64,000 nt of DNA, taken from NCBI RefSeq assembly GCF_035917675.1, contig NZ_CP109104.1, positions 3,410,001 to 3,474,000 on the forward strand, written 5' to 3'. A program made the translations under genes and the position numbers. A model generated the notes under the pieces. It was given only the letters and a program-made list of their open reading frames with translations, ran no database searches and was not told the origin of the DNA. Every line of letters begins with the position of its first letter. Within the stretch, counting starts at the first letter, position 1. Below are positions 2,408 to 18,087 of the stretch, piece by piece. Source of the stretch: Streptomyces sp. NBC_01775. GTDB lineage: Bacteria > Actinomycetota > Actinomycetes > Streptomycetales > Streptomycetaceae.

Positions 2408-3238
2408 TCAGCGTTGTCCGCCGCCCTCCAGGCGGGCGAGGTCGGATTTGACGATGGTGGTGGTCACGAGGAGTTCGGTGATCAGGTTGTGGTTGAGCGC
2501 GTTGCCGACGGGCTGGGGGATTTCGTCTTCCATGAGCCCGGGCACCGTGCGGCTGAGCCTTGTCCGTACGCCGGCGACGACACGTGCCGCCCGCTTCCTG
2601 GTCCAGGTCTCCGCCGGGCGCAGCTCCGCCAGTTCGGCCGCGACCTCGGCCCAGGTAAGAGGCTGTGGCAGAGGGTCGTTGCGCAGATAGCGCTGGGCGA
2701 GGCAGATCACGACCAGCTTCTCGGTCGCGGTCAGGTCCCACCCATCGCCGTCGCAGGTGGCGGCCTCGCGCAATCCGTCGCCCCCCGCGCCGGGCGTCGG
2801 CGTGGCGATACGCACCTCCAGCAGGTGCTCCCGTTTCGGGGCGACGATGAACAGCGGGGTGAACCCGGACGAGAGCTCGACCCGGTCACCGCCCAGCACC
2901 AGGCGCGCCCCTGCCCCCGTCCCCGGGAGCCGGATGGGCAGCCGCCCGGTGTTGTTCAGCACCCAACGCGAGTACTCCCGCGTGATGTAGCCGTGCTTGC
3001 GGCTGACATGCGCGTCGTCCGGCGCGACACAGACATGGACTTCGGGCTCATTACGCCCGAACACGAGAGGGAAAGCGGCGTCGGGAGCCATGCTCATACC
3101 GCCGTTGACACCCATGACGAACAGAGTGCCGGGCTGCGTGGACGGAATACCGCGCGACAGGCTCCCGTAATCCTGCGGCAGCAGATTGACCTTGCTCGGT
3201 TTGACCTTGCTCGGTGGCCGCGACGGCGACAGCGTCAT
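2408..3238 (-). CDS. FHA-domain protein with C-terminal helical domain
   Basis: A 276-residue cytoplasmic protein with no signal peptide or membrane helix. Residues about 60-130 form an FHA fold, with FGR, the VSRKHG motif and an N-N pair (VLNNTG), the residues FHA domains use to bind phosphothreonine. Residues about 165-235 form a separate helical domain beginning LTATEKLVVICLAQRYL, a type seen in Streptomyces FHA proteins and possibly winged-helix-like. The ATG follows a GGAGGCGGAG ribosome binding site. The gene is downstream of the giant surface protein and the Ser/Thr kinase on the same strand. This suggests it reads phosphorylation by that kinase, which is inference from context. Confidence 0.82.
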   Translation of the reverse strand: MTLSPSRPPSKVKPSKVNLLPQDYGSLSRGIPSTQPGTLFVMGVNGGMSMAPDAAFPLVFGRNEPEVHVCVAPDDAHVSRKHGYITREYSRWVLNNTGRLPIRLPGTGAGARLVLGGDRVELSSGFTPLFIVAPKREHLLEVRIATPTPGAGGDGLREAATCDGDGWDLTATEKLVVICLAQRYLRNDPLPQPLTWAEVAAELAELRPAETWTRKRAARVVAGVRTRLSRTVPGLMEDEIPQPVGNALNHNLITELLVTTTIVKSDLARLEGGGQR

Positions 3239-3403: not shown

Positions 3404-3444
3404 CTGGGGGCATGCCTGCCCCCCTGCGGCAGGCATGCCCCCAG
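3404..3444. terminator. Perfect 15-bp inverted repeat in the FHA/giant-gene gap
   Basis: Arms at 3404-3418 and 3430-3444 are perfectly complementary (15 bp, containing GGGGGCATGCC) around an 11-base loop. It lies 60 bases beyond the giant gene's terminator hairpin and upstream of the FHA gene. It may be a second terminator or a dispersed palindromic element. Confidence 0.6.
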
Positions 3445-3499: not shown

Positions 3500-3533
3500 C
3501 CCGCTGCCGCCCGGAAGGCCGGGCGGCAGCGGG
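3500..3533 (-). terminator. Strong terminator of the giant surface-protein gene
   Basis: A perfect 15-bp stem (arms 3500-3514 and 3519-3533, core CCGCTGCCGCCCGG) with an AAGG loop, seven bases past the stop codon of the minus-strand giant gene. No T-tract follows, but the stem is very stable. It suggests the FHA gene is transcribed mainly from its own promoter. Confidence 0.85.
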
Positions 3534-3539
3534 GTGCGG

Positions 3540-6500
3540 TTACGGCGCGGGCGCTGGTGCGGGCGCGGGCGTGGGTTCCGGAGTGGGTTCCGGAGTGGGT
3601 TCCGGAGTGGGTTCCGGAGTGGGTTCCGGAGTGGGTGCCTCCTCCACTGGCTCCTGTGCGGGTGCCTCCTCCACGGGCTCCGAAGTGGGCTCCGGAGTGG
3701 GTGTCTCGTCCACGGGTTCCGGTGCGGGTGCCTCGTCAGCTGGCTCCGGAGTGGGTTCTGGCGTGGGTTCCTGGTCCACGGGCTCCGGAGTGGGTGCTGG
3801 CGTGGGTTCCTGGTCCACGGGCTCCGAAGTGGGTGCCTCGTCCACTGGTCCCGGAGTGGGTTCCGGCGTGGGTGCCTCCTCCACGGGCTCCGACGCAGGT
3901 GCCTGGTCCACTGGCCCCGGAGTGGGTGCTGGCGTGGGTTCCTGGTCCACCGATGCGGGGGTGGGTTCCGGCGTGGGTGCGGGTACGGGCGCCGGGGCCG
4001 CAGGTTCAGGGGCGGCTTCCGGTGTCGCATTCGGCTCCGCCGGTGCGGGTGCCGGTGCGGGTCCGGGTGCCGGGGCGGGTGCCGGGGCCGGGGCGGGGGC
4101 GGGTGCCGGGGCGGGTGCCGGTGCGGGTCCGGGTGCCGGGGCGGGTGCCGGGGCCGGGGCGGGGGCGGGTGCCGGGGCGGGTGCCGGGGCGGGTGCCGGG
4201 GCGGGTGCCGGGGCGGGTGCCGGGGCGGGTGCCGGGGCGGGTGCCGGGGCCGGCTCACCCGGTAGTGGTGGTGCGCCTGCCGGGTTCCCCTCGGGGGCTG
4301 ATTGTGACGCGCGCTGCTCCGCGAGGACCTGCCCTGTGACGTACCCGGGGTCGGACTGAGTTGCGGCTTGGTTCAGGGCATCCAGTATCTGTTGTCCTGC
4401 TGAAGGCGCCGGTGGTGCGCCCGCCGGGTTCCCCTCGGGGGCTGATTGTGACGCGCGCTGCTCCGCGAGCAGCTGCCCTGTGACGTACCCGGGGTCGGAC
4501 TGAGTTGCGGCTTGGTTCAGGGCATCCAGTATCTGTTGTCCTGCTGAAGGCGCCGGTGGTGCGCCCGCCGGGTTCCCCTCGGGGGCTGATTGTGACGCGC
4601 GCTGCTCCGCGAGGACCTGCCCTGTGGCGTACCCCGGCTCGGCCTGCGCTGCGATGTCGGCCAGCGACTGCACCTGGTCGGGGTGGGTGTTCCCGTACAC
4701 GCCCAGGCCCGTCACGGTACCCGCACCGCGCGCGATCGCCGTGTATTTGCCCCCGACCAGGCCGCCGATACCGGCCCCCATACCGACGTCCGTGGTGAAG
4801 TCGTTCGCCGCCGTTCCGGGTTCACCGAGGTAGGGCGCGGCGCCCTGTGTGCCGGGGGGTTTGGCGACTCCCGCGGAGACTTCGCCGCGCGTGGGCTGGA
4901 ATGCGGGGTTGAGCGGGTCCATCGAGGGGTCCGGCGGGATCCCGCCGTCCATCTGGCGCAGGATTTCCCGCGTCTCGGGGTGCTCACTGGTGTACGCGCT
5001 GGCGTTCCAGAGGCCGCCCAGGACACCGCCCCCCGCCGCTCCCTTGGGACCTCCCGCCGCGAACCCGACACCACTGCCGTGCCACACACCGTCGACGGTG
5101 CGGCCCCCGAAGTCGCCCCAGTCCCAGGCCGGGCCGGGTGCGGGCTCGTTCGCGAGACGGCTGACGATCGGCCCTTCGGGCAGCGGGGTCCCGGCCGGGA
5201 TCGCACCAGCCGCCGGCGGCGCGGCCTCACCGGGCGGGATCTCGGCGGGGGCCGGCTGCTCCGCCTGCTGCTGGGCGGGCGTCTTGATGCCCATCTGCTC
5301 CGCGAGAGCCTCGCCTGTGGCGTACCCCGGCTCGGCCTGCGCTGCGATGTCGGCCAGCGACTGCACCTGGTCGGGGTGGGTGTTCCCGTACACGCCCAGG
5401 CCCGCCACGGTACCCAGCCCGCGCGTGATCGGCTCGTACTTGCCACCGGGCAGGCTGCCGATACCGGCTCCCCGGCCGACGTCCTTGGTGAAGTCGCCTG
5501 CCGCCGTTCCGGGTTCACCGAGGTAGGGCGCGGCGCCCTGTGTGCCGGGGGGTTTGGCGACTCCCGCGGAGACTTCGCCGCGCGTGGGCTGGAATGCCGG
5601 GTTGAGCGGGTCCATCGAGGGGTCCGGCGGGATCCCGCCGTCCATCTGGCGCAGGATTTCCCGCGTCTCGGGGTGCTCACTGGTGTACGCGCTGGCGTTC
5701 CAGAGGCCGCCCAGGACACCGCCCCCCGCCGCTCCCTTGGGACCTCCCGCCGCGAACCCGACACCACTGCCGGCCCCTACACCCTTGACGGTGCGTCCCG
5801 CGAAGTCGCCCCAGTCCCACGCGGGGCCGGGCGCGGGCTCGTTCGCGAGACGGCTGACGATCGGACCTTCGGGCTTGGCCGGCTCCTCGGGGGTGTCCTG
5901 CCCATCGGGCCTGGCGCCGTCCTCGGGTGCCGGCGCGGCGTCCGCAGGAACGTTCGGGCGGAGCACAGGGAACGGGGCCCCGGACTCGGGGAGCGGCGGC
6001 ACGGTCCCCATTCCGCCGTACAGCTGGTCGTACGGCGGCGCACCGGCGTCGCTGTCGGCCAACCTCCCGGAAAGGAAGTCGGACAGGGGCGTACCGGGGG
6101 GCGGTGCGGGCGGTGCCGGAACCGTGCTGGTGGCCGAGCTTCCGGCCTGCGGGGCCGCCGTGGACGGCCCCTGCACCGGCCCCTGCATCGGCCGCTGCAC
6201 CGGTCCCTGCACCTTCGGATCGGGCGTCACCGGCTCGTCCGAGCCGTCTCCGGGGGGCGTGGACGGCGCCTCTCCTGCTGTGGACCGCACCTCTCCACTT
6301 GAGTCCGCGTACGGGAGGGCCGCCGTGGGATGCTCCGCGAGGTCCGGCAGGTCGGCAGTCGGCTCCTCGGAGTCCGAGGAGTCCTCGGAGTCCTCGGAGT
6401 CCTCGGAGTCCTCGTCGGCGTCGTCGTCTTCGGCAGCGGGAGCAGCGGAAGCAGCGGCGTCGTCCGCGTCGGTGGGAGCCGTTGCGGGGATCTCTCCGCG

Positions 6501-8006
6501 CGGGTCGATGTCCGGCCGTTCCGCCCCGGCAAGCTGCCGGGAGTCCGTCGGAGCCGCCGTCGGCAGATCGACGGGCAGGTCCGCCGCGTCGAACGGTACG
6601 GACGACTCCGGATTCCGGTCCTCGGCACCCGGCGCCGTCTCCTCGACGTCCCGGCGAAGGTCCCGGACGTCCGTCCCCTCGGGGGCCTCTTGGCGGTCCT
6701 TCTCCGCGTGGTCCCGCTCGGGAACACCGTGCGTCGGGTCCGCGTCGTTCGCCGACTCGTCCCCCTGCGCCGACTCGGACGCCTGCGCCGACTCGTCCAC
6801 ATGCTGTGGCTGTTCAGCGGCATCCGGCCGTTCGGCGGCCGGGTCGACCGATGGCTCCTCTTCCCCGTCGGTCCTCGCGGATTCCCCGTCGGTCCTCGCG
6901 GAGTCGTGGTCCGGGCGCGGCTCCTGCGCGGCGGCCTTCTCCGTCTGATCGGGGGCCACCTCTGCCCGATCGGAGGCCACCTCTGCTCGATCAGGGGCCG
7001 TCTCCGTCCGGTCGACGGGAGGCTCGGGGGGCGTCTCCGCCCGGTCATCCGCGTCGGGGGCCTGACGCGTCGTGCGCTCCGCCGGAGAGTCCTCGCCGGC
7101 GGCTCCGTCCCTGTCCCCGTCCTCGGCCCAGGCTGGACGATCACTGCCGGAGGTTCCCGGCGCTTGCGGCTGGTGACGCCGGCTCAGCGTCTCCTCGTCC
7201 ACCCCGGAGGCACGCAGGCGCTCTGCGACGCGCTTCCGGACCTCCTGCTCGAACGCGGAACTCCCGGATCGTGAGTGCGTCTGATCCGCGCCCCGCGCCG
7301 ACTCCACCTCGATGTCGTGCTGTTGCTGTTGCTGCTGGTGGGAGTGCTGCTGATGCGTGGTCGCGGCCTGTGCCTGGCCCGGCTGTACGGCCGCCGACAG
7401 CAGCCAGGCGCCGAACCCCAGCGCCCCCGTCAGCACCGCCGTACGAAGCAGCTGCCGGTCCCACAGCGGCTTCGGGTGCCGCTCCGACCGGGGGGACGAG
7501 AACGCCGACCGCGCCGACTTCGACGGCTCACCGCTGTCCTCGGCACCGACCGTGCCCGAGACGACGGCGTCCACCAACTCGCCCACGGTGGCCGCCGGTA
7601 CCTCGTGCACCGCACAGCGGCCCGGGTACGTACGCGCCCCCGTCAGCCCCGGCTGCACCGCCACGTACGCGACCCGCCCGAGACCGGCCAGTTCCTCGGC
7701 GTCGACGATCAGCAGCGCGGCGGCGGACAGCTCCACACCCGTACGCTGCCCGTCCCACCAGGCACGCAGCCGCTGTGCCGCCCCCGGCGCGGCGAACTCG
7801 TCCCCGTACATCGGCGGTACGAGCACCGGCACGCTCCCGCCTGTCCCGGCCAACCGCGACCTCATCGCCACGGTGACGGAGCTGGCCAGTTGAAGGTCCC
7901 TGACCAGCACCAGATACGCACGACCGGCGCTGTCGTCCGGTGAACCGGAACGTGCCTTCGCTTGCGGGGGACAGCCAGGTGGATGCGGGACTTTCCGTAG
8001 ATACAT
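3540..8006 (-). CDS. Giant repeat-rich single-pass membrane/surface protein (1488 aa), unknown function
   Basis: I do not recognise a characterised family. Residues about 28-150 form a compact alpha/beta-looking domain beginning AYLVLVRDLQL. A transmembrane helix lies at about 186-207 (VLTGALGFGAWLLSAA). A Gln/His tract and a long acidic Pro/Ala/Ser/Asp/Glu-rich region follow to about 700. Two near-identical modules of about 187 residues lie at about 712-898 and 943-1129. Each has two glycine-zipper-like stretches (for example GAAGGGVLGG) and the motif HPETREILRQMDGG. Three 48-residue repeats follow, then an Ala-Pro tract and a Pro-Glu-Pro-Thr tail to the end. The ATG has a GAGGAGG ribosome binding site. 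Predicted topology is a cytoplasmic N-terminus with some 1280 residues outside, enough to span the cell wall. No LPXTG motif is visible. Neighbours are a membrane kinase and an FHA protein. Confidence 0.85.
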   Translation of the reverse strand: MYLRKVPHPPGCPPQAKARSGSPDDSAGRAYLVLVRDLQLASSVTVAMRSRLAGTGGSVPVLVPPMYGDEFAAPGAAQRLRAWWDGQRTGVELSAAALLIVDAEELAGLGRVAYVAVQPGLTGARTYPGRCAVHEVPAATVGELVDAVVSGTVGAEDSGEPSKSARSAFSSPRSERHPKPLWDRQLLRTAVLTGALGFGAWLLSAAVQPGQAQAATTHQQHSHQQQQQQHDIEVESARGADQTHSRSGSSAFEQEVRKRVAERLRASGVDEETLSRRHQPQAPGTSGSDRPAWAEDGDRDGAAGEDSPAERTTRQAPDADDRAETPPEPPVDRTETAPDRAEVASDRAEVAPDQTEKAAAQEPRPDHDSARTDGESARTDGEEEPSVDPAAERPDAAEQPQHVDESAQASESAQGDESANDADPTHGVPERDHAEKDRQEAPEGTDVRDLRRDVEETAPGAEDRNPESSVPFDAADLPVDLPTAAPTDSRQLAGAERPDIDPRGEIPATAPTDADDAAASAAPAAEDDDADEDSEDSEDSEDSSDSEEPTADLPDLAEHPTAALPYADSSGEVRSTAGEAPSTPPGDGSDEPVTPDPKVQGPVQRPMQGPVQGPSTAAPQAGSSATSTVPAPPAPPPGTPLSDFLSGRLADSDAGAPPYDQLYGGMGTVPPLPESGAPFPVLRPNVPADAAPAPEDGARPDGQDTPEEPAKPEGPIVSRLANEPAPGPAWDWGDFAGRTVKGVGAGSGVGFAAGGPKGAAGGGVLGGLWNASAYTSEHPETREILRQMDGGIPPDPSMDPLNPAFQPTRGEVSAGVAKPPGTQGAAPYLGEPGTAAGDFTKDVGRGAGIGSLPGGKYEPITRGLGTVAGLGVYGNTHPDQVQSLADIAAQAEPGYATGEALAEQMGIKTPAQQQAEQPAPAEIPPGEAAPPAAGAIPAGTPLPEGPIVSRLANEPAPGPAWDWGDFGGRTVDGVWHGSGVGFAAGGPKGAAGGGVLGGLWNASAYTSEHPETREILRQMDGGIPPDPSMDPLNPAFQPTRGEVSAGVAKPPGTQGAAPYLGEPGTAANDFTTDVGMGAGIGGLVGGKYTAIARGAGTVTGLGVYGNTHPDQVQSLADIAAQAEPGYATGQVLAEQRASQSAPEGNPAGAPPAPSAGQQILDALNQAATQSDPGYVTGQLLAEQRASQSAPEGNPAGAPPAPSAGQQILDALNQAATQSDPGYVTGQVLAEQRASQSAPEGNPAGAPPLPGEPAPAPAPAPAPAPAPAPAPAPAPAPAPAPAPAPAPAPAPAPGPAPAPAPAPAPAPAPAPAPAPGPAPAPAPAEPNATPEAAPEPAAPAPVPAPTPEPTPASVDQEPTPAPTPGPVDQAPASEPVEEAPTPEPTPGPVDEAPTSEPVDQEPTPAPTPEPVDQEPTPEPTPEPADEAPAPEPVDETPTPEPTSEPVEEAPAQEPVEEAPTPEPTPEPTPEPTPEPTPEPTPAPAPAPAP
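3571..3630. repeat. 12-bp tandem repeat, five copies
   Basis: Five consecutive copies of GTGGGTTCCGGA, each encoding four residues of the Pro-Glu-Pro-Thr tail of the giant protein. More degenerate copies continue towards 3990. Frame is preserved, so copy number can vary without breaking the gene. Confidence 0.9.
4070..4250. repeat. GC-rich minisatellite encoding the Ala-Pro tract
   Basis: Tandem copies built on GCGGGTGCCGGG and shorter variants give a pure Ala-Pro repeat in the giant protein, broken by a few Gly residues. This is slippage-prone DNA in which several frames stay open. Confidence 0.88.
4282..4640. repeat. 144-bp direct repeats, two full copies and one partial
   Basis: Units begin at 4282, 4426 and 4570, exactly 144 bases (48 codons) apart, with only a few differences. 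Each encodes a unit containing SAPEGNPAGAPPAPSAGQQ and DALNQAATQSDPGYVTGQ. The very high DNA identity points to recent duplication. Confidence 0.9.
4621..5180. repeat. 560-bp direct repeat, copy 1 of 2 (partner at 5314-5873)
   Basis: This segment is almost identical to 5314-5873, an offset of exactly 693 bases (231 codons). Both encode the glycine-zipper module of the giant surface protein. The near-identity at synonymous positions indicates recent duplication or ongoing gene conversion. Confidence 0.92.
5314..5873. repeat. 560-bp direct repeat, copy 2 of 2 (partner at 4621-5180)
   Basis: This is the N-terminal-proximal copy of the module duplicated at 4621-5180. The few differences cluster in the segment around the second glycine zipper and in the linker leading into the repeat. 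Confidence 0.92.
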
Positions 8007-8325
8007 GCTTGGCGCCTCCTCATGACTGGACGACGCGCGCCGGCCCGTTCACCGCTGGGCACGGCACGACAAGGTCCCGGTCCGGGTCTCTTGGTGCGCG
8101 GTGACGCTAGGGGAGTTCGTCCGGGACCGGTCCCAACCCGTCAGTAACGGACGGTTGGCGGAGCGTGGTTCGCGTAGCGCGGTTCACGGTTCGCGGAGCA
8201 CGGTTCGCGATTCGCGGAGCACGGCGGATTCCGTGTTCGGGTGAGGGGCGTGCGTGCCTGTCTGATGCCCGCGGGCTGCGTGTGTGTTGTGGCTTGGCGC
8301 GCGGTTTCTCGCGCCCCTTTGGGCG
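8007..8325. promoter_or_regulatory. Regulatory region upstream of the giant gene, with palindrome and 21-bp repeats
   Basis: This gap of 319 bases lies between the kinase stop and the giant gene start. It holds a perfect 12-bp palindrome GGGACCGGTCCC at 8123-8134 and, on the minus strand just downstream, a TAGCGT that could be a -10 element. The same TAGCGT sequence occurs upstream of the FHA gene. No good -35 is visible, so the promoter call is tentative. Confidence 0.4.
8169..8224. repeat. 21-bp-period direct repeats, three copies
   Basis: A 14-base core (TTCGCGGAGCACGG; first copy TTCGCGTAGCGCGG) begins at 8169, 8190 and 8211. The period is exactly 21 bases, two turns of DNA helix. The array sits about 160-220 bases upstream of the giant gene start, suggesting a cooperative protein-binding site. 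Confidence 0.7.
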
Positions 8326-9858
8326 CTACGTGCGCCGGTAACTGAAGGTTCGCGTACCTTCCCAGGTTCTCTTCTTGATGCGGTACCTATGCGCCTTTTC
8401 CTCGGCCAGGTGACCGGGGCCAAGATTGATCACGTCGGCGCGGCGCCAGGTGCCGTCGATTTCCTGGTCCACGAAATAGGAGAACTCGTTGAAATCTTTC
8501 GTCGAAGACTCGAACGAGTTCCTGACGGTGAGAACTTTTCCGCCCTTCGTGGACGACCTCGACAGCTCGACGGTCTGATCCACCCAGATGGTGCGGGCGC
8601 CGTCCAAAGGTGCCCACCTTCCGGCCTTCTTGCCGTTCACGGTGACGGACGCGCTCTGCGCGGACACGCTGGAGTCGAGGCGTCGTGTCAGCCGGATGCC
8701 GGTGTTGGCCGGATCGACCGTCACCGTGAACTGGCTCCAGCCGCCGGGGCCGAACGCGCGGCCGTCGTCGGTGACGACGCGTCTGTAGGAGGCCGACGGC
8801 TCGGCGGAGTCCGGGAGGGCGAGGAACATCACCCCGGCCACGACGGCGGCCAGGGTTGTCACGAGCCCGGTGAGCAGGACGCCACGGCGTGCAATCGACG
8901 GGAACTTCCGCTCGGAGGCGGGGTCCACCGTGGCCTGTCCGTGCAGCTGATGGCCGGGTTCTTCGGCTTCCGAGGCCAGCGCGCCCGTGGACTCGGACTC
9001 CCTGGAGCTGATCATGGCCATGACGGCGGGAGGGAGCCAGCCGTCGCTCGGCCAAGGGCCGGCCAGCCGGGCGAGAATCTCGGCGAGAGGGGGCCGGGCG
9101 GCGGGGTCCTTCGCCAGGCAGGCGACGATCAGGTCGCGATGCTCGGGCCCGACAGTGATGTCGCGCAGGTCGGGTGGTTCGCTGGTGATACGACGGAGAA
9201 CGGCGGCGGTTGTCTCGCCCTCGAAAGGACTGCGTCCGGTGGCCGCGAATGCCAGGACCACACCAAGGGCGAACACGTCGCCGGCGGCTGCGGGCCGATG
9301 TCCGTTCACCTGTTCCGGGGACATGTAGGCGTAGGTCCCCAACACGGCGCCGGTCGCGGTCATCTTGCCGGCGTCCTGCGTGCCGGCGATACCGAAGTCG
9401 ATGATTCTCGGGCCGTCGGCGGCCAGGATCACGTTGCCGGGTTTGAGATCCCGGTGCACCAGCCCGCACGCGTGAATGGCGGCCAGCCCCTCCGCGAGCC
9501 CCGCACCCAGAGTCCGAACGGCCTGTGCGCCGAGGGGGCCGTGTTCGGTGACGGCGCCGTGCAGGGAAGGGCCGGGGATATAGGCGGTGGCCATCCACGG
9601 CGGATCGGCGTCGGGATCGGCGTCGATGACCAGTGCGGTATGGAATCCCCCGACCCTGCGGGCGGCCTCGACCTCGCGGGCGAATCGGGCGCGGAATCGC
9701 TCACGCTGCGCGTATTCGTACCGGATCAGCTTCACCGCGACCGGACGTCCTCCGGGGGAACGACCGAAAAACACCTGCCCCATGCCGCCTTCGCCAAGCC
9801 GCCCCACCAGCCGGTACTTGCCGACACACCGCGGGTCGCCGGGCCGCAGAGGATCCAC
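8326..9858 (-). CDS. Membrane Ser/Thr protein kinase (PASTA-less) with extracellular beta-sandwich domain
   Basis: A 510-residue receptor-type kinase. Counting from the GTG at 9858, which follows TGGAGGG, the kinase domain spans about 14-266. It has GEGGMG in the P-loop, Lys43, HRDLKPGN at 135-142, DFG at 154-156 and an APE-equivalent SPEQ. A linker leads to a transmembrane helix at about 326-348, and the last 160 residues lie outside. That outer domain (FTVTVDPANTGIRLTRRLD, then a VNG turn and an aromatic-rich end) resembles the beta-sandwich at the C-terminus of DUF2961/GH172 proteins, so it may sense carbohydrate. An ATG 13 codons upstream is possible but lacks a ribosome binding site. It probably signals to the FHA protein encoded downstream. 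Confidence 0.9.
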   Translation of the reverse strand: MDPLRPGDPRCVGKYRLVGRLGEGGMGQVFFGRSPGGRPVAVKLIRYEYAQRERFRARFAREVEAARRVGGFHTALVIDADPDADPPWMATAYIPGPSLHGAVTEHGPLGAQAVRTLGAGLAEGLAAIHACGLVHRDLKPGNVILAADGPRIIDFGIAGTQDAGKMTATGAVLGTYAYMSPEQVNGHRPAAAGDVFALGVVLAFAATGRSPFEGETTAAVLRRITSEPPDLRDITVGPEHRDLIVACLAKDPAARPPLAEILARLAGPWPSDGWLPPAVMAMISSRESESTGALASEAEEPGHQLHGQATVDPASERKFPSIARRGVLLTGLVTTLAAVVAGVMFLALPDSAEPSASYRRVVTDDGRAFGPGGWSQFTVTVDPANTGIRLTRRLDSSVSAQSASVTVNGKKAGRWAPLDGARTIWVDQTVELSRSSTKGGKVLTVRNSFESSTKDFNEFSYFVDQEIDGTWRRADVINLGPGHLAEEKAHRYRIKKRTWEGTRTFSYRRT

Positions 9859-10027: not shown

Positions 10028-13000
10028 TCAGTGGGAGGCGTGCGCGGCCCGGTCGAGGAGGCGTCGCCACACCCCGTAGGAGGCCGCCTCCTCGGTGGGA
10101 CGCAGCCCCATGCGGTTGCAGTGCATGTGCAGCAGGGCCAGGACGATGTCGCCACGATCCGCCAGGAGTTCGCCTGTCCGCTCCAGCTCGGTCATCCGGC
10201 GGGTGAGCCGCTCGGCGGCCGGGCGCCACACGGCGGCGGCCTGGTCGAGCAGTTCGCGGGTCGGGCCGTCTTCGGTGCGTGCCGTCCACAGGCTGCGCCC
10301 GGCCGTCCGGTACACGTCGCCACCGGCGTTTCGCGCCGCCGCGAGGCGGGCGAGGGCGTGGCGTGCCTCGGTTTCGGGGATCAGACAGGCGCACAGCCGG
10401 TCGACGGTGAGGGCGACGAACGCGGCACGCTCCTGGTCCGGCTCCAGGCGCACGTCCGGCAGGCCGGTCCCGGAGCCGCGAAGGCGCCGGAGGAGTTGGA
10501 CGACGGCAGTGCTGTCCTGACGGAACCACTCCTCGGCGTCTGCGATCAACTCGGGGCCGCCGTAACGCTCGACCTCGCGCTGATAGCTCACGAAGGTGTG
10601 GTCCGAGATGTGCCCGTCCCGGGCGAGGCCGTAGGCCCAGGCGGTCACCTCGCGCAGGACGTCCGGGCGCGCGGACTCCTCGGGCACGAAGAACCGCACC
10701 CGCAGATGGGGAGCCGGATCGCCGTAGCGTAGGAAGAACGGCGCTGCCACGCCGTACTGTTCGGACAGTCGCTCGGTGAGGCCCGCCAGACCCACCCCCA
10801 GCAGCGCGTCATGGGCGTCGGGCTCGGCGTAGAGCTTCACGGCCAGCCAGTCGCTGCCGACCCGCTTGCCCCTTGCGCCGGGATCCTCGGCGATGGCGCG
10901 GACCGGGCGGGGCTTGATGTGCTGGGCCACTCGGCCCGGGTCCTGGCTGGTGCGTACGAGGGGCACCACGATCTCGGAGGCATACGGCTCACCGGCGGCG
11001 TCCCGCAGGAAGCCCTCGTCGGGTGCGGGCAGCACCTCCTCCAGGACGATCCCCTCCTCCGGAGCCTGTTCCAGGCTGTCGCGCAGCTCGCGCAGGGAAG
11101 GGGCGCTGGTGAGGTCGAGCAGCAGAGTGTTGTCGTTGCTGGCGATGTTGACCAGGCGGGGCACCAGCCACGTCTCGGCCCAGGCGCCGACGGCCTCGGC
11201 GAACGCGGCCAGGCCGTCTCCCTCCCCGTTGCCGTGACTACTGGGGGTTGGCGCGAGCTCGCCCGGTCGCAGCCGCCACCGCGCCCGGCGCAGCACCAGG
11301 TTGCCCCGCTCGACGCGGGGCAGGAACGGCATGCTCCAGCTCAGACCTTCCCAGCTGAACCACGAGACCGTGCTCGAGAGGGCCTGGGAGACCTCCAGCA
11401 GGAACCGGCAAGGGTCCGGAGCACCTGCCCAGTTGAGCATCGTGCGATCGGTGACGTGCAGCCGCCGGCCCAGCGTGCGGCTGCGCAGATAGAGCTTTCC
11501 GTCGGCCACGCCGACGAGGACGTCGTCCAGACGGATCACGTGATCCTCGTCCCGGCCGGGCGTGACGTTGACCGGCAGTTCCCACGTGTGCGCGGTGGGG
11601 CGGATCACGACGTTGATGGACCGGGCTTCCTGGGGGAGGGAGGTCAGCTCGGCGCAGACGGCGTCGCCCTGGCGCCGCTCCTCGGCGGCGGCCAGCTCCC
11701 GCAGCGACGCTTGCGTCTCGTCGTCGAGGAGATCGTGGAATCGGGCGAAGGTCCGGCCGCCCATCACGACCCCGGCGGTGCCGCAGATACCGCGCCATTG
11801 ATCACGGCCGGGGCCGGGTGCCACAAGGGCCAGGTACAGGTCGAGGACGGGCATCGGCGGCCGGTGGTCGTCCTCGGCGGCCGAGACCTCGGCCAGCTCT
11901 TCGAGCAGCCGGTCGTCGAGCTGGACGCTCAGCTCCCGGCGGGCCAGGGCCCCGGTGACCAGCCGGTTCAGCACGGCCTCCCGTGTCGGCCCGTCCGGCC
12001 GGTCCGCCCGGTCCGCGGGCTGCTGGACGACGCCGGGCAGCGGATACGCCTGTCCTGGGGAGAGGTATCTGCGCGGCGGGCCGAGGCCGGTCTCCGGGGT
12101 CAGCGCCTCCAGCAGGGGGATCTCGGAGCGGTGGCCGTACCGTTCGGAGAAGGCGTCGGCGTACTCCTTGAGATGCGGCGGGTAGCGGTCTTCCGCGCCC
12201 ACGCGCATGAACACGCGGGCGGCCTCTTCGGCCAGGTCGGCCACGGGCCGGGGAAGGACCAGAGGCGCGTCGAGGTCCAGCGCCGAGTCGATCTGGAGGG
12301 TCGGGCCCGAGTGACCGCCGATGGCATCGGGCATCGGCGCGCTCACCGTCTTGAGCAGTTCCGATATCGGGACCTCACCCTGGTTGAACGCGCTGATCGC
12401 GGCCTCCACACCGTCGATGGCGCGCGCGACGGCGGGGTCGGTGACGGGCGGCAGCATCGAGCCCAGCAGTGAGTTGTCCCGGTCCGTCCGGCCGGTCGGC
12501 GGGACGAGCAGCCGGGGGCGCTCGGCGGTGATGAGGATGTCGCTGTCGAAGAGGCCGTCGAGCAGGGCCGCGATCCGCTCGGCACCGGCCTTCGGATAGG
12601 CCTCGGTGAGCAGAGCGGTGAGGTCGCCGAGCGTCGTCGGCGTACGGGTGTGGTCGAGCACGGACCGTATCGGCGCGGTGAGCCGTACGCTGACGGAGCG
12701 TCGGCCCTTGGGCTGTACGGTCCGCCCGCCGTCGTCATGCGCGCCGTGGTGAGCGGCCTCGGCCCTGTCGCGCAGCCCGTAGCCTTCGGCGGTGGACAGC
12801 CACACCCGGCCGCGGGCCACGTGGAGCAGGTCGTTGCGCCGCACTCTCAGGTCGTGGGGGCGCTCCGCGCCGAAGGCGAGCCGCTTCACCAGGTGCATGA
12901 CCCACCCGGAGTCCGCGCGTGCGCGGGCCGTTCCGATGGCGGCCGGGCCGAGCCGGGTGCGCTGCTCCTCGCCGAAGGTGCCGGTGGTCACGCCCGCGAA

Positions 13001-13339
13001 GAGGCCGAACGGCGTCGAGCGGAAGCTCATCCGGTTCAGGTAGCGGCTGAGGCCGCGGACGGCCTTCCGCCGGCTCTTGCCGGTGAGGCCGTCGAACCGC
13101 TCAACGGCGTCCGCCAGATGAGGCGAGGCGGCCCGCACCGCGTCCGGCACGCCCGGGGTCCACCACAGCTTGAGGAGCTGATCCGCGTATTCGTCCTGCC
13201 AGGCGTCCGTGCGCACGGCGTCGCCGTCCGCCACGGGCAGCGACCTGAGCAGTTCGAGCATCGGGCGTGCGGGCAGGGCCGGCGCCCTGAGCATGAAGAA
13301 CCCGCAGGCCCGGTAGGTGTCGGCGGTCTCTTCGCTCAT
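10028..13339 (-). CDS. lanB: Full-length class I lanthipeptide dehydratase (LanB)
   Basis: A 1103-residue enzyme that dehydrates Ser and Thr in the precursor using glutamyl-tRNA. The N-terminal glutamylation domain spans roughly residues 10-750 and carries the conserved MSFRSTPFGLFAGVTTG stretch near residue 100. The C-terminal SpaB-type elimination domain, about residues 830-1103, starts DWLAVKLY and ends with the family's HMHCNRMG motif. Both halves are in one chain, as in NisB, unlike split thiopeptide dehydratases. The start ATG overlaps the cyclase stop (ATGA), so the two are translationally coupled. Longer upstream reading lies inside the cyclase gene and is not used. The substrate is presumably the precursor at 14908-15060. 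Confidence 0.94.
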   Translation of the reverse strand: MSEETADTYRACGFFMLRAPALPARPMLELLRSLPVADGDAVRTDAWQDEYADQLLKLWWTPGVPDAVRAASPHLADAVERFDGLTGKSRRKAVRGLSRYLNRMSFRSTPFGLFAGVTTGTFGEEQRTRLGPAAIGTARARADSGWVMHLVKRLAFGAERPHDLRVRRNDLLHVARGRVWLSTAEGYGLRDRAEAAHHGAHDDGGRTVQPKGRRSVSVRLTAPIRSVLDHTRTPTTLGDLTALLTEAYPKAGAERIAALLDGLFDSDILITAERPRLLVPPTGRTDRDNSLLGSMLPPVTDPAVARAIDGVEAAISAFNQGEVPISELLKTVSAPMPDAIGGHSGPTLQIDSALDLDAPLVLPRPVADLAEEAARVFMRVGAEDRYPPHLKEYADAFSERYGHRSEIPLLEALTPETGLGPPRRYLSPGQAYPLPGVVQQPADRADRPDGPTREAVLNRLVTGALARRELSVQLDDRLLEELAEVSAAEDDHRPPMPVLDLYLALVAPGPGRDQWRGICGTAGVVMGGRTFARFHDLLDDETQASLRELAAAEERRQGDAVCAELTSLPQEARSINVVIRPTAHTWELPVNVTPGRDEDHVIRLDDVLVGVADGKLYLRSRTLGRRLHVTDRTMLNWAGAPDPCRFLLEVSQALSSTVSWFSWEGLSWSMPFLPRVERGNLVLRRARWRLRPGELAPTPSSHGNGEGDGLAAFAEAVGAWAETWLVPRLVNIASNDNTLLLDLTSAPSLRELRDSLEQAPEEGIVLEEVLPAPDEGFLRDAAGEPYASEIVVPLVRTSQDPGRVAQHIKPRPVRAIAEDPGARGKRVGSDWLAVKLYAEPDAHDALLGVGLAGLTERLSEQYGVAAPFFLRYGDPAPHLRVRFFVPEESARPDVLREVTAWAYGLARDGHISDHTFVSYQREVERYGGPELIADAEEWFRQDSTAVVQLLRRLRGSGTGLPDVRLEPDQERAAFVALTVDRLCACLIPETEARHALARLAAARNAGGDVYRTAGRSLWTARTEDGPTRELLDQAAAVWRPAAERLTRRMTELERTGELLADRGDIVLALLHMHCNRMGLRPTEEAASYGVWRRLLDRAAHASH

Positions 13340-14757
13340 GTCTCCCCCATGCCCCGGTCCGGTCTCGTCCCCGCCTCGGTCCCGCCCGGTTCGTGCCCGC
13401 GCGGGAGCCTGGGAGTCAGGAACAGCAGCTCGTCCCACTCGGCCGCCGCGTCGGACACGGCGCCGAGGAGGGCGAGCAGGACTCCGGCCGCACCGTTCAA
13501 CAGGCCGGGGTTGTGCTCCTGCCCTCCCCACGGGTCGTAGTCAGGGAAGAGGTAGGGGTGGTCCGGGTCCGCGTACGAGCACAGCTGCGACAGGAACTCG
13601 TCGTGCATGCGCCACAGGTCCGGCACGCCCGTCTGTGCGGCGGCGCGGCCGTAGACGGTCAGCAGCCCGGCCAGCCCGTGGCACAGCGTGGGTGAGTTGA
13701 TGCGCTGATGCTCGGCAGGGGTGCGTTCGACGCCGAGGAGCGTGGCCACCGCGAGGTCGGTCGGCTCCGGGTCGCCGCAGGCCGCCGAGGCCGGCAGCAG
13801 GGACGCGGCGACACCGGGCGCGCCATAGCACCACGCGCTCCTGGCCGGTACCTGCGGAGAATCGGTGTCGGGGCGCCCGGAGTCCGGGTGGGGCAGCAGA
13901 AGGTTGGCCCACGCCGGATAGTCGAGGCCGTCGATACGCAGCGCTCCGAGTGTCTGGGCAAGGTCACGGATTCCCTGCCGTACCCGGTGTGGCCGTGCGT
14001 CCACGCGCACGAGGCCGGCCGCGTGGGCGGTGTCGGGGCGGCAGAGGGCCGCGAGAATGCCCGCAGGGCCGTGGGCGAACCCCAGGTTGTACACGCCGTC
14101 GGGAAAGTTCTTCACGTATCCCGGAAGGGGCGTCGGCTGTCCGTCGGGGCCCGGAATGCTGGGGAAATGGGAGGGCGCGCAGAACCACCTGAGCTTGCCG
14201 CCGTCATCCTGGGTCAGATCCACCAGGTAGTCGACAAGGCGGCCCGTGGCCTCTCTGGCCGCGTCCGTCGCGCGCCCGCCGAGGACATCCGCTGCTTTGA
14301 GGAGCGCGGCGAGCCAGCCTGCCGCGCCCGCGATGACGTCGTAATCGTGAGAGGCGACGCTTCCCGCGGCGGTGTGGAGCGTGATCGCCAGCGTCTGCCG
14401 GGCGAGCCGGTCGGTCATCGTGGCGAGCGTCGGGAGGTAGCGCGGCTCCAGACGGGCGTACTCGGTCACCGCCCAGACGACACCCGCGGTGCCGAGGTAC
14501 AGACCGGGTGCGTTCAAGGGCGCGGCGGCACTCGCCTCGGCGGTGCGCCGCAGCTGGAGCTGACCCGCTTTGAAGTAGCGGTCGTCGTCGAAGACTTCGG
14601 CGGCATACCGGAGGGCGAGCGCGACGCCGGGGGCACCGTCGGCGAGATCCGCCTTCACTGCGGCGTCGCCGGCCGATTCCATGAGCCGGTCAGCCACCTC
14701 GCGAGCCAGCCGCAGAACCTCGTCGTCGGTCACTTTCCCCGCGGAACGAGACTCCAT
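13336..14757 (-). CDS. lanC: Lanthipeptide cyclase (LanC)
   Basis: A 473-residue zinc enzyme that adds Cys thiols to dehydrated residues to make lanthionine rings. The LanC signatures are present: the GFAHGPAG helix region, WCYG with the first zinc Cys, and CHG supplying the second Cys and the His. The chosen ATG gives MESRSAGKV; the frame stays open 30 codons upstream, but that extension lacks family features. The gene lies 150 bases downstream of the precursor gene and overlaps the dehydratase gene by four bases. Its C-terminal tail of about 25 charged residues after the last helix is not conserved in the family. Confidence 0.94.
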   Translation of the reverse strand: MESRSAGKVTDDEVLRLAREVADRLMESAGDAAVKADLADGAPGVALALRYAAEVFDDDRYFKAGQLQLRRTAEASAAAPLNAPGLYLGTAGVVWAVTEYARLEPRYLPTLATMTDRLARQTLAITLHTAAGSVASHDYDVIAGAAGWLAALLKAADVLGGRATDAAREATGRLVDYLVDLTQDDGGKLRWFCAPSHFPSIPGPDGQPTPLPGYVKNFPDGVYNLGFAHGPAGILAALCRPDTAHAAGLVRVDARPHRVRQGIRDLAQTLGALRIDGLDYPAWANLLLPHPDSGRPDTDSPQVPARSAWCYGAPGVAASLLPASAACGDPEPTDLAVATLLGVERTPAEHQRINSPTLCHGLAGLLTVYGRAAAQTGVPDLWRMHDEFLSQLCSYADPDHPYLFPDYDPWGGQEHNPGLLNGAAGVLLALLGAVSDAAAEWDELLFLTPRLPRGHEPGGTEAGTRPDRGMGET

Positions 14758-14883
14758 AGCTCCGCCGTTCCCTCTCTCAGCCTTTTCAGCAAATCTCGGC
14801 CTTCCCAGCAAACGACCATACGGAGGGCTCTGGGATCCCCTGTACACGGACCGCGGGGCCCTCCGCGTGGCTCGCGATGGGTG

Positions 14884-14906
14884 TGCGTCACATCAGATGT
14901 GGCGTG
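14884..14906 (-). terminator. Possible attenuator hairpin after the precursor gene
   Basis: Just past the precursor stop is a small stem built on CACAT/ATGTG, extended with one mismatch. Many lan operons have a weak terminator here so that the precursor is transcribed in excess over the enzymes. The stem is short, so this is tentative. Confidence 0.3.
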
Positions 14907-14907
14907 G

Positions 14908-15060
14908 TCAGCAGCACCCGCTGAGCGTGTCCGTGCAGAGTGACGTGCGCGACGTCGCGCACCCGCCGTTATCCGTGGCAGCGGCGGAACTGGTGGAAAC
15001 CGCCGCGTGACCAACACGCAGGTCGAGGGAGAATTCGTCTTCCAGCAGGTCTTCGCTCAT
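14908..15060 (-). CDS. lanA: Class I lanthipeptide precursor, FxLD family (50 aa)
   Basis: A 50-residue precursor in the gap between exporter and cyclase genes, with a strong GGAGGGAAC ribosome binding site. The leader begins MSEDLLEDEFSLDLRV. The FSLD box at residues 10-13 matches both the F-N-L-D recognition box of class I leaders and the FxLD(V)RV signature of the actinobacterial FxLD family. The C-terminal part is rich in Ser and Thr and has four Cys at 34, 42, 49 and 50, the last two adjacent at the C-terminus. A Gly-Gly at 32-33 precedes the first Cys, but FxLD leaders are not known to me to be cut there. Up to four (methyl)lanthionine rings are possible. The mature start is unknown. 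Confidence 0.93.
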   Translation of the reverse strand: MSEDLLEDEFSLDLRVGHAAVSTSSAAATDNGGCATSRTSLCTDTLSGCC

Positions 15061-15143
15061 TTTGTTCCCTCCGATAAGGGGCCCGTACGGGAATCTCTGG
15101 GAAATCGGCGTTTGTGAATACCGGATTTCCCGGAGCCTCATGG

Positions 15144-15173
15144 AACGTAGCCGAGCGCCACGAGCAGCGTCAA
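15144..15173 (-). promoter_or_regulatory. Sigma-70-like promoter for the precursor gene
   Basis: On the minus strand TTGACG (15168-15173) is followed after 18 bases by TACGTT (15144-15149), a good vegetative promoter. It would give a leader of about 80 bases before the precursor ATG and lets the precursor be transcribed independently of the exporter. Confidence 0.7.
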
Positions 15174-15299
15174 CACATCTGCCGCATCGGCCACTTGGGC
15201 AACTGAGGCGGCAGGGAAACCGCCCTGGCGCGTATCGGGATTGTCCGGCGCAAGAATGCTCGGTGTACCGAAGTGCAGGTGAACAGGGGCGAGTTGGTA

Positions 15300-17375
15300 C
15301 TAATGCTGAGCAGCGGCCCCGTCGCGGGGCGCGGGGATTTTCGCCGCCGGGGACGAGGCGAGCCCGTACTGCGCGGCCTGCGCGTCGAACATGCCCCGGT
15401 ACAGCCCGCCGCCCCGGCCCATGAGCTGCTCGTGGGTGCCGTGTTCGGCGATGTGCCCGCGATCCAGGACGTAGATGTGATCGGCGGAGGCGGTCGCGGC
15501 GAGCCGGTGGGTGACCAGCACCACCGCGACGCCGCTGTCGGCCAGGGTCCGCAGCCGGTCGAACGCCTCGATCTCGGCGTGCGGATCGAGCGCCGAGGTC
15601 GGCTCGTCGACCAGGAGGAACGGCGCGCCGCGATAGAGGCTGCGCGCCGTGCCCAGCTTCTGCCACTGTCCGCCCGAGAGCTGGACGCCGCGTTCGTACC
15701 CTTTGAAGACCATGGAGTCCCAGCCGTGCGGCAGGCCCTCGATCAGTTCGTCCACGTCGGCGGCGCGCGCCGCCTCCTTGACGTGGGCCATGTCCCGGGG
15801 ACGGTCCCCGGCGCCGATGGCGATGTTGGCGGCAGCCGTCATCTGCCAGTTCGGGAAGTCCTGCGTCAGCATCCCGACGGACCGGAAGATGTCGGCGCGG
15901 GCGGCCTCGCGCACCTCCACCCGTTCCCCGTCAGGCCCCGGACCCACCCACCACACGTCACCGCTGCCGGGCAGCAGCAGCCCGCCCAGGATCTTGGCCA
16001 GCGTGGACTTGCCGGAGCCGTTGGCGCCGACGAGCGCGGTCACCTCGCCCCGCCGTACGGACACGTCCACGCGGTGCAGCGCGGGCACCGTGGCGCCGGG
16101 GTAGGAGAAGGAGACATCCCGTACCTGGATCTCCCGTACCGGCGAGGGCAGCCGCTTGCCGGTCTGCGGGATGGCGTGCCGGGCCGCCAGCTTGGTGGCC
16201 TCCTCGGTGTCGCCGAGCCGGAGCATCTCCTCGTACATACGGTTGACCTGCTGCACCAGCGAGGTGAGCCGCCCGGTCGAGGTGCGAATGGCGACCACCG
16301 CGGTGCCGCCCACCGCCATCGGCAGGCCACCGCTGGTCAGCAGCCACCACAGCACCCCGTAACAGCCCAGGGACGCCAGACCGGAGAACGCGCCGGCAAC
16401 CAGGTCGGTCCGAGCCTGGGCCCGAGCCAGGCGGCGCTGCTCGGTCTCCATCAGCCCGGACATCTCCTCGTACCCGCGCAGCAGCAGCGAGCCCGCCGAA
16501 TGCGCCCGGATCTCCCCCGCGGCGTGCGGCAGCGTCAGGTACTGGAGCAGCGTGGCGACGGCCCGGCGGTGATCCACCCAGTGCCGTCGTGAGACGTACT
16601 CCCGGCGCGCCGAACGCACCGCTCCCCAGCCCTTGGGCAGCGCGATGGCCAGCAGCATCGGCAGCAGGGCCCAGTGCAGCGAGGCCAGCACGACGGCCGC
16701 GGCCACCATGCTGATCACGACGTTGGCGACCCCTACGGACAGGCCGAGCATGCGCCGTGCCGAGTCGGTGCCGAACTTTCCTGCCTCCAGGTGACGTTGG
16801 ACGTCCGGTCGCTCGGTCGCTGCGACTTCCACCTGAGTGATCGCCCGGTAGTAGCGGGTGGAGACGACTCGCTCGACCTGGGGCTCCAGCCGCCCGGACA
16901 TCGCCGTCGACCAGGCGGCCAGCAGCGCCGTGCCCACCGAGACGAGGGCCAGCAACGCGAGGGCCGGAAGCGAGTGCTGAAGCTTGTCGCCGGTCGGCCC
17001 GTTCGCGAACAGACTGCTGAGCACACCGTTGACAGCCACGAGCCCGAACGCGGCGGTCAAGCCCTGGCCGGTCTGCGCCACCACCACACCGGCCAACGCG
17101 CGCGGGTCGGAGCTCCAGCCGGCCCGCAGGACCACGCCCATCATGCGCGGCAGCGCGGCGGCCATGTGTACGAAGCGCAGGCGCGCCACCGCGCCCTCGT
17201 GCTCGACGAACGCGTCGTCCCAGCGCAGGCGCCCTCCGAACAGCTCTCGTTCCGCTGCCGAGACTCCGTCCGCAGCCGTGGGCCCCGAGCCCTCGCGCGG
17301 CTGCCCTTCCCGGCTCGGCTCGTCGATCGGGGCGGGGGCCGGCCCGGGACCACCCGCGCCGGCAGCCCGCCTCAT
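15300..17375 (-). CDS. lanT: ABC transporter, fused permease-ATPase (lanthipeptide exporter)
   Basis: A 691-residue half-transporter with an N-terminal membrane domain of about six helices (residues 75-390) and a C-terminal ATPase. The ATPase has Walker A GANGSGKST, the signature LSGGQ, Walker B FLLVDEP and a switch His in VTHR. There is no N-terminal C39 peptidase domain, so it should export the modified peptide without cutting the leader. The ATG follows AGGAGG. It is the first gene of the lanthipeptide cluster, 239 bases upstream of the precursor. Self-immunity by export is possible, since no LanFEG or LanI gene is visible. Confidence 0.9.
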   Translation of the reverse strand: MRRAAGAGGPGPAPAPIDEPSREGQPREGSGPTAADGVSAAERELFGGRLRWDDAFVEHEGAVARLRFVHMAAALPRMMGVVLRAGWSSDPRALAGVVVAQTGQGLTAAFGLVAVNGVLSSLFANGPTGDKLQHSLPALALLALVSVGTALLAAWSTAMSGRLEPQVERVVSTRYYRAITQVEVAATERPDVQRHLEAGKFGTDSARRMLGLSVGVANVVISMVAAAVVLASLHWALLPMLLAIALPKGWGAVRSARREYVSRRHWVDHRRAVATLLQYLTLPHAAGEIRAHSAGSLLLRGYEEMSGLMETEQRRLARAQARTDLVAGAFSGLASLGCYGVLWWLLTSGGLPMAVGGTAVVAIRTSTGRLTSLVQQVNRMYEEMLRLGDTEEATKLAARHAIPQTGKRLPSPVREIQVRDVSFSYPGATVPALHRVDVSVRRGEVTALVGANGSGKSTLAKILGGLLLPGSGDVWWVGPGPDGERVEVREAARADIFRSVGMLTQDFPNWQMTAAANIAIGAGDRPRDMAHVKEAARAADVDELIEGLPHGWDSMVFKGYERGVQLSGGQWQKLGTARSLYRGAPFLLVDEPTSALDPHAEIEAFDRLRTLADSGVAVVLVTHRLAATASADHIYVLDRGHIAEHGTHEQLMGRGGGLYRGMFDAQAAQYGLASSPAAKIPAPRDGAAAQH

Positions 17376-18087
17376 ATCGGCCTCCTGGACTCCTGGTGTG
17401 CCGCGCGACGTGCGGCGGTGTCCACCCGGAGTCGTTCACGTACGGCAAGACCGGTCGCGGGGGCGCGACTTGGGGTCACAGGACCTCCAGTTCGGGCGCG
17501 TCAGGGCATCGACGCCGGGATGTCGTGGGCGAAGCGGACTGCGGCTACGGGCACTTGAAGCACCGGGCCCCAGCCCACACTTCGGCCCGTGTCAGAACCC
17601 ATAGGCTTCGGAAGGTGCGAAGGTGCCCGAACGCCGCGGGGCCTCCCGGGCGGGGATCACCGTACTCACGCACCCGGAACAATTCGGAGCCGGGGGCTGC
17701 CAGTTCGACCGTACCCGCGGCACGGAACTCGACGTGCCGACGTGCCGACGTACCCGAGGCGCTCGGGGCTCAGGCCTGCTTCGCCCTCCATCGCAAGCGG
17801 GCCGGTCAGCCCCGCGCCCCCGAGCATGCCGCTGCCGGCCGCGGTGGAATCGTTCGACCTCGCCGTTGGCCTGCGGGTGGTAGGGCTGGACTCGCTTGTG
17901 GACGAGGCCGGCCGCGGCCGGAGTCCGGGTGAAGAGCTTGGCCGTGCAGCAGGAGCCGTTGTCGGTTTCCTGGTGGACGTGCACCGCCTCGATCCCCTGA
18001 CTGACCACCAGGTCGAGTCGGCGCAAATCCAGCGACCGGAAACCCCAACCTGCACCAAAGCATGTAAAAGAGCCTCTGCTCGAAATC
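17376..18087. other. Gene-poor junction between accessory cluster and core genes
   Basis: This 712-base stretch holds the transposase remnant and otherwise only short, unconserved reading frames. A minor 8-base tandem repeat (GACGTGCC-like, three copies) lies near 17731-17754. No tRNA, attachment site or integrase is seen. Confidence 0.6.
17800..18050 (-). pseudogene. Decayed IS481-type transposase fragment
   Basis: In one minus-strand frame (about 18026-17840) the reading HQETDNGSC, then HKRVQPYHPQANGEVERFHR, matches the second half of an IS481/IS3-type DDE integrase core, with the D of TDNG and the E of GEVERF as catalytic residues. Related sequence continues in a different frame, and the first catalytic Asp and the helix-turn-helix region are missing. 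No terminal repeats are visible. It marks a past insertion at the border between the lanthipeptide cluster and the core genes. Confidence 0.75.

Follow-up and report, generated by a model that had tools for sequence, protein, structure and literature searches.

A small orphan family of giant, putatively exported Streptomyces proteins with concertedly evolving modules and kinase and FHA-like neighbors

AfsK-type Ser/Thr kinases work with FHA partners, and the repeat-rich surface proteins of Gram-positive bacteria combine a signal, variable repeats, and a proline-rich rod. Glycine zippers, for their part, feature in CdzC and CdzD of Caulobacter, contact-dependent bacteriocins described as type I-exported proteins of 84 to 86 residues with an extended zipper of almost entirely hydrophobic residues, a toxin size of about 5 to 10 kDa, and dedicated secretion genes close by (PMC5380434).

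The locus analyzed here resembles each of these systems in part. It lies within a 64,000-nucleotide stretch (the window; 71.5% GC) of the 9.34-Mb, two-contig genome of Streptomyces sp. NBC_01775 and comprises a gene for a 1,488-residue protein, hereafter the giant protein, whose direct neighbors encode a Ser/Thr kinase and an FHA-like protein. Like AfsK-type enzymes, this kinase has an AfsK-matching kinase domain and an FHA-like reader nearby, but it scores far below the AfsK cut-off, carries another outer domain, and has a giant, putatively exported protein added. With the Gram-positive proline-rod proteins the giant protein shares a signal-like segment, variable repeats that are alike within the gene, and the rod itself; it differs in that its signal-like segment comes after about 180 residues that include a folded domain and in that no LPxTG motif was found in it or in the database sequences P0001 to P0006, for which reason a sortase-anchored wall protein was rejected. 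Its glycine-zipper stretches, predicted to be exported and surface associated, recall the Cdz proteins, which are the nearest described extracellular use of such zippers (PMC5380434). However, neither size nor zipper conservation fits: the giant protein has an inner domain and a signal-peptide-like segment, its zipper is not conserved in its family, and its length (880 and 849 residues in relatives L009 and L066) led us to reject a Cdz-like small toxin.

The giant gene and its family

The gene and its parts are as follows, with the basis of each assignment.

8004-8049, minus strand: conserved leader with ribosome-binding site; AGGAGGCGCC and ACGGG lie ahead of the start codon in all six genomic copies
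3540-8006, minus strand: giant protein gene, open reading frame with ATG start; same build in L003, L009, and L066
7542-7925, minus strand: N-terminal orphan alpha/beta domain (N-domain), residues 28-155; AlphaFold2
7365-7457, minus strand: signal-peptide-like segment, residues 184-214, ending in QAQA-A; hydropathy and alignment, cleavage putative
5871-7364, minus strand: acidic low-complexity linker, residues 215-712; composition and alignment
5295-5870, minus strand: module 1, residues 713-904; repeat comparison
4602-5177, minus strand: module 2, residues 944-1135; repeat comparison
4263-4601, minus strand: 48-residue repeats, residues 1136-1248; repeat comparison
3543-4262, minus strand: Ala-Pro and Pro-Glu-Pro-Thr rod, residues 1249-1488; composition
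3500-3533, minus strand: GC-rich hairpin just past the stop codon, stem GCTGCCGCC...GGCGGCAGC, in 5 of 6 copies and absent in L004

Much of this layout, from the N-domain through a single hydrophobic segment, linker, modules, and repeats to the rod, had been proposed in the first-pass annotation and was confirmed. Relatives also have the N-domain, the signal or membrane segment, the module, and the proline-rich rod, and recurrence of this build in other Streptomyces genomes indicates that the gene is real. The linker is acidic as claimed (114 Asp and Glu versus 39 Lys and Arg over residues 216 to 712) and holds a conserved short basic helix-like stretch at about residues 250 to 275. The rod, 40% Pro and 24% Ala in the window, is also present in L003, L004, L009, and L066, and the 48-residue unit corresponds to a 144-nucleotide array of 2.7 copies, the first pair being identical at 142 of 144 nucleotides and the second at 78 of 144.

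The hairpin would be terminator-like, although the window copy lacks a clear T tract. A leader and a hairpin belonging to the giant gene itself suggest that it is transcribed separately, which counts against one operon with the kinase and FHA genes. The spacers hold two further structures, i.e., between the giant and FHA genes, an inverted repeat with two perfectly matching arms of 17 bases (3404-3444), not seen in the L003 spacer, and, between the kinase and giant genes, short tandem repeats with units of 21 and 35 bases (8151-8224).

The N-domain is conserved across ten sequences, and the first 215 residues can be aligned throughout the family. AlphaFold2 gave a pLDDT of about 70 to 85 for residues 31 to 100, so that the alpha/beta fold originally suggested is now predicted at moderate confidence; the domain is presumed to be cytoplasmic. 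Receiver- and flavodoxin-like domains (e.g., 2b4a) show no sequence match to it, and many unrelated alpha/beta folds score equally. A CpaE/Ssd-type receiver-like domain was rejected at hhalign probabilities of 0.2 and 0.1% against Ssd N-domains, which is weak evidence as the profiles are shallow (Neff about 1.5 to 2.4). Hydrophobicity peaks in one segment, residues 189 to 207, with a Kyte-Doolittle (KD) score of 1.64 (1.34 for the corresponding segment of L009), directly followed in nine of the ten sequences, L004 being the exception, by [AV]-Q-A, which resembles a signal-peptidase site. The single membrane helix first annotated hence stands as a hydrophobic segment, but one that ends in AxA and is possibly a signal peptide that is cleaved off.

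As first reported, the protein fits no described family: Pfam, NCBIfam, and PADLOC models gave no match, and PHROGs a single weak one (E 0.0096). Sequence searches recovered nine other proteins with the N-domain, namely, L003 (S. camponoticapitis, genome G783) and L004 (S. diacarni), which were 2 of 81 pattern-bearing stretches in genome contigs; L009 (genome G298), L065 (G489), and L066 (G420); and P0001, P0004, P0005, and P0006 from the protein database. The source record of P0004 names Streptomyces smyrnaeus; this sequence is incomplete, shares 96% identity with L009 across 74% of the query, and may come from a close strain. All named records with the giant gene are Streptomyces, and the other genomes carrying it also belong to the window's genus. 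The N-domain was matched in 2 of 295 genus genomes by single-sequence search (the window's own and one judged chance), in 2 of 392 by alignment-based search (own and G298), in 3 of 245 genomes from 8 genera at order level (own, G420, and G489, all of the window's genus), and in 1 of 246 from 103 genera at class level (own only); as these samples overlap and few candidates were scored per genome, the rarity is clear and the frequencies approximate. Judged by sequence, this is a small new orphan family, rare but of a familiar kind.

What follows the signal-like segment varies. The window protein, L003, L004, L009, and P0004 have detectable modules, as, more weakly, does L066, while L065 has a module-like but more diverged stretch recognized by eye only. 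P0001, P0005, and P0006 gave no BLAST match to the module and contain 5.6, 8.6, and 7.1% histidine, respectively, versus 1.3% in the window protein. The putatively exported part would thus consist either of glycine-rich modules plus a proline-rich rod or of His-richer tails without modules.

Concerted evolution of the modules

The two near-identical modules had been put at about 187 residues and regarded as either young or kept alike by gene conversion. Their duplication is borne out: the copies lie 231 residues (693 nucleotides) apart and are identical at 535 of 573 nucleotides at that offset, far beyond chance, the longest stretch without a mismatch being 174 nucleotides. The homologous unit is better described as about 190 residues inside a 231-residue period. 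An assembly artifact, which the first-pass annotation had left open, is contradicted by L003, an independent genome that likewise carries a pair of modules, whose DNA is about 75% alike.

A six-row tree built from the module cores grouped the window pair (100/99) and, likewise, the L003 pair (100/100). Consistent with this, dS was 0.11 (window) and 0.35 (L003) within genomes versus about 0.71 to 0.77 between them. In all module comparisons, dN was lower than dS. Unlike the cores, the 32 residues that follow each of them match by position: between the window and L003, like positions scored 75 and 75 and crossed positions 46 and 46, with nothing as extreme in 2,000 shuffles. Tails matching by position and cores clustering within species imply that the two modules predate the lineage split and that the cores were homogenized later. 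Gene conversion, favored here between the two original options, would be the simplest cause, and repeated replacement by unequal exchange a possible alternative route; the pair itself is older than the split and hence not young.

The glycine zippers, initially read as suggesting membrane insertion or oligomerization, fare less well as the key to the protein. In equivalent module segments, the window protein has 9 and 8 (overlapping) GxxxG motifs, L003 has 5 and 4, L009 has 7, and L004 has 3, but longer matching segments in G489 (70 residues) and G420 (73 residues) have just 4 and 2, and three family members lack a detectable module. The best 19-residue hydropathy in the modules (0.69 and 1.04 in the window, 0.72 in L009, 0.78 and 1.21 in L003) is below that of the signal-like segment, so that membrane insertion is not indicated, the margin being modest for L003 module 2. 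Being weak in G489 and G420 and not very hydrophobic, the zipper is not the family's defining feature. Structure prediction on one module reached a pLDDT of only 40.

Kinase, FHA-like protein, and other neighbors

The two flanking genes, left unused in the first-pass annotation, are the best lead to function.

8326-9858, minus strand: AfsK-like membrane Ser/Thr kinase with predicted extracytoplasmic C-terminal domain (Pkinase E 1.9e-37)
2408-3238, minus strand: FHA-like protein (FHA 15.1 bits, below the Pfam cut-off of 20.7)

The membrane segment of the kinase has a KD score of 2.28; its best-matching NCBIfam model is AfsK, at 292 bits against a cut-off of 1,300 and over the kinase domain only. 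Among the six giant-bearing genomes searched, an orthologue with the outer domain was present in four (G000, G783, G420, and G489), and the outer domain was not found in G298 or G782. The FHA orthologue was likewise found in G000 (100%) and in G783, G420, and G489 (86 to 87%), whereas G298 had no match and G782 a single weak one of 32%. The order kinase-giant-FHA is seen in the window, L003, and G489; because an opposite-strand open reading frame lies between the kinase and giant genes in G489, and because G420, with its kinase gene adjacent, has the FHA gene on a different contig, adjacency in these two genomes is unproven.

Between the window and L003, identity is 77% for the kinase and 84% for the FHA-like protein versus 61% for the giant N-domain and 55% for the modules, suggesting that the giant protein changes fast relative to the pair. 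Of 246 genomes of the genus, 45 contain FHA relatives, and among 16 FHA neighborhoods fetched, 12 had a kinase match within 5 kb and none the giant N-domain. With neighborhoods mostly including a kinase and never the giant N-domain, kinase plus FHA is the older and more common combination, to which the giant gene was added in one branch. The partners are not obligatory, as L004 and L009 have the giant gene without either.

The outer domain of the kinase (8329-8787, minus strand) shares 54% identity with the outer, C-terminal portion of a Nonomuraea gerenzanensis protein of 434 residues with a single membrane segment, and may be a mobile sensor domain. Next to the kinase/giant region lies a class I lanthipeptide-type cluster (10028-17375, minus strand), to which the nearby ABC transporter belongs.

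15300-17375, minus strand: ABC transporter
14908-15060, minus strand: 50-residue precursor with FSLD leader and Cys/Ser/Thr-rich core
13336-14757, minus strand: LanC
10028-13339, minus strand: LanB with C-terminal domain

The precursor, which we take to be of the FxLD kind, matched no NCBIfam or Pfam model. Such genes were not seen beside the giant gene in L065 or L066. A remnant-like stretch at 17592-18026 (minus strand) weakly matches an integrase core (rve_3, E 0.0077, below cut-off), which suggests old mobile DNA beside the cluster.

Possible roles of the giant protein

Our preferred reading, to which we give a probability of roughly 0.4, is that the giant protein is a Sec-exported surface protein tied to, and controlled or read by, the kinase/FHA pair. 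Export is read from sequence motifs, the partnership from co-occurrence, and the surface role from composition. Conservation of the N-domain and signal-like segment while the outer parts differ favors this reading; the giant gene's occurrence without either partner, the FHA-kinase neighborhoods that lack it, the frame breaks noted below, and the moderate confidence of the N-domain model weigh against it. The N-domain would stay in the cytoplasm, either left behind or anchoring the protein, and the signal-peptide-like segment would cross the membrane, where cleavage at the conserved AxA may release the outer part. Outside, a flexible, acidic spacer would lead to one or two glycine-rich modules and the 48-residue repeats, followed by a stiff proline-rich rod long enough to span the cell wall. 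The membrane kinase would sense outside conditions and phosphorylate threonine on the FHA-like protein or the N-domain, thereby adjusting synthesis or export of the giant protein. An extended form, possible if rather doubtful, sees the orphan domain and signal-like segment as a fixed inner unit carrying swapped exported tails, with output set by the kinase/FHA pair and the modules gene-converted as in antigen- or self-recognition proteins.

The same co-occurrence, together with a membrane-spanning topology and a conserved inner domain under variable outer parts, would also suit a sensor-scaffold, in which the outer rod feels the wall and the N-domain signals to the kinase and FHA-like protein, making the giant protein input instead of output. 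We consider this unlikely, since the conserved AxA suggests a cleavage that would uncouple inside from outside, and two genomes have the giant gene without the pair. Those stand-alone copies (L004 and L009) and the gene's own leader and hairpin fit a structural or adhesive wall protein that has no functional tie to the pair and neighbors it through shared history, an account we also consider unlikely; that kinase and FHA orthologues are present or absent jointly in 6 of the 6 genomes compared counts against it.

An improbable reading is surface-bound antagonism, with the glycine-rich modules inserting into or aggregating on the membranes of neighboring cells, as proposed for Cdz bacteriocins. 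The dense GxxxG motifs of the window segments, the rapid divergence with module homogenization, and the adjoining lanthipeptide-type cluster are consistent with it, but module hydropathy in the window is at most 0.69 to 1.04 (though 1.21 in L003 module 2), the zipper is weak in two genomes, no immunity gene was identified, and the giant protein is >10 times longer than CdzC and CdzD (PMC5380434). That the gene is a decaying selfish or low-value element kept by chance seems very improbable. Few genomes carry it, and frame breaks affect 3 of 6 genomic copies (in the linker of L003, the N-domain of L004, and the rod of L065), possibly through sequencing error, decay, or phase switching. However, the frame is intact in the window, L009, and L066, dN is below dS throughout the modules, and the leader and hairpin are conserved; in G489, the genome of L065, the FHA gene is also frame-broken, which makes sequencing error plausible there.

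If the pairing of the giant protein with the kinase and FHA-like protein is functional, it would link a bacterial Ser/Thr kinase and an FHA-type reader to one particular exported surface protein that evolves fast, and a Streptomyces kinase would gain a substrate or output that can be tested. The family also represents a natural example, on a small scale, of tandem modules evolving in concert within a putative surface protein, and provides a new orphan N-domain for structural work.
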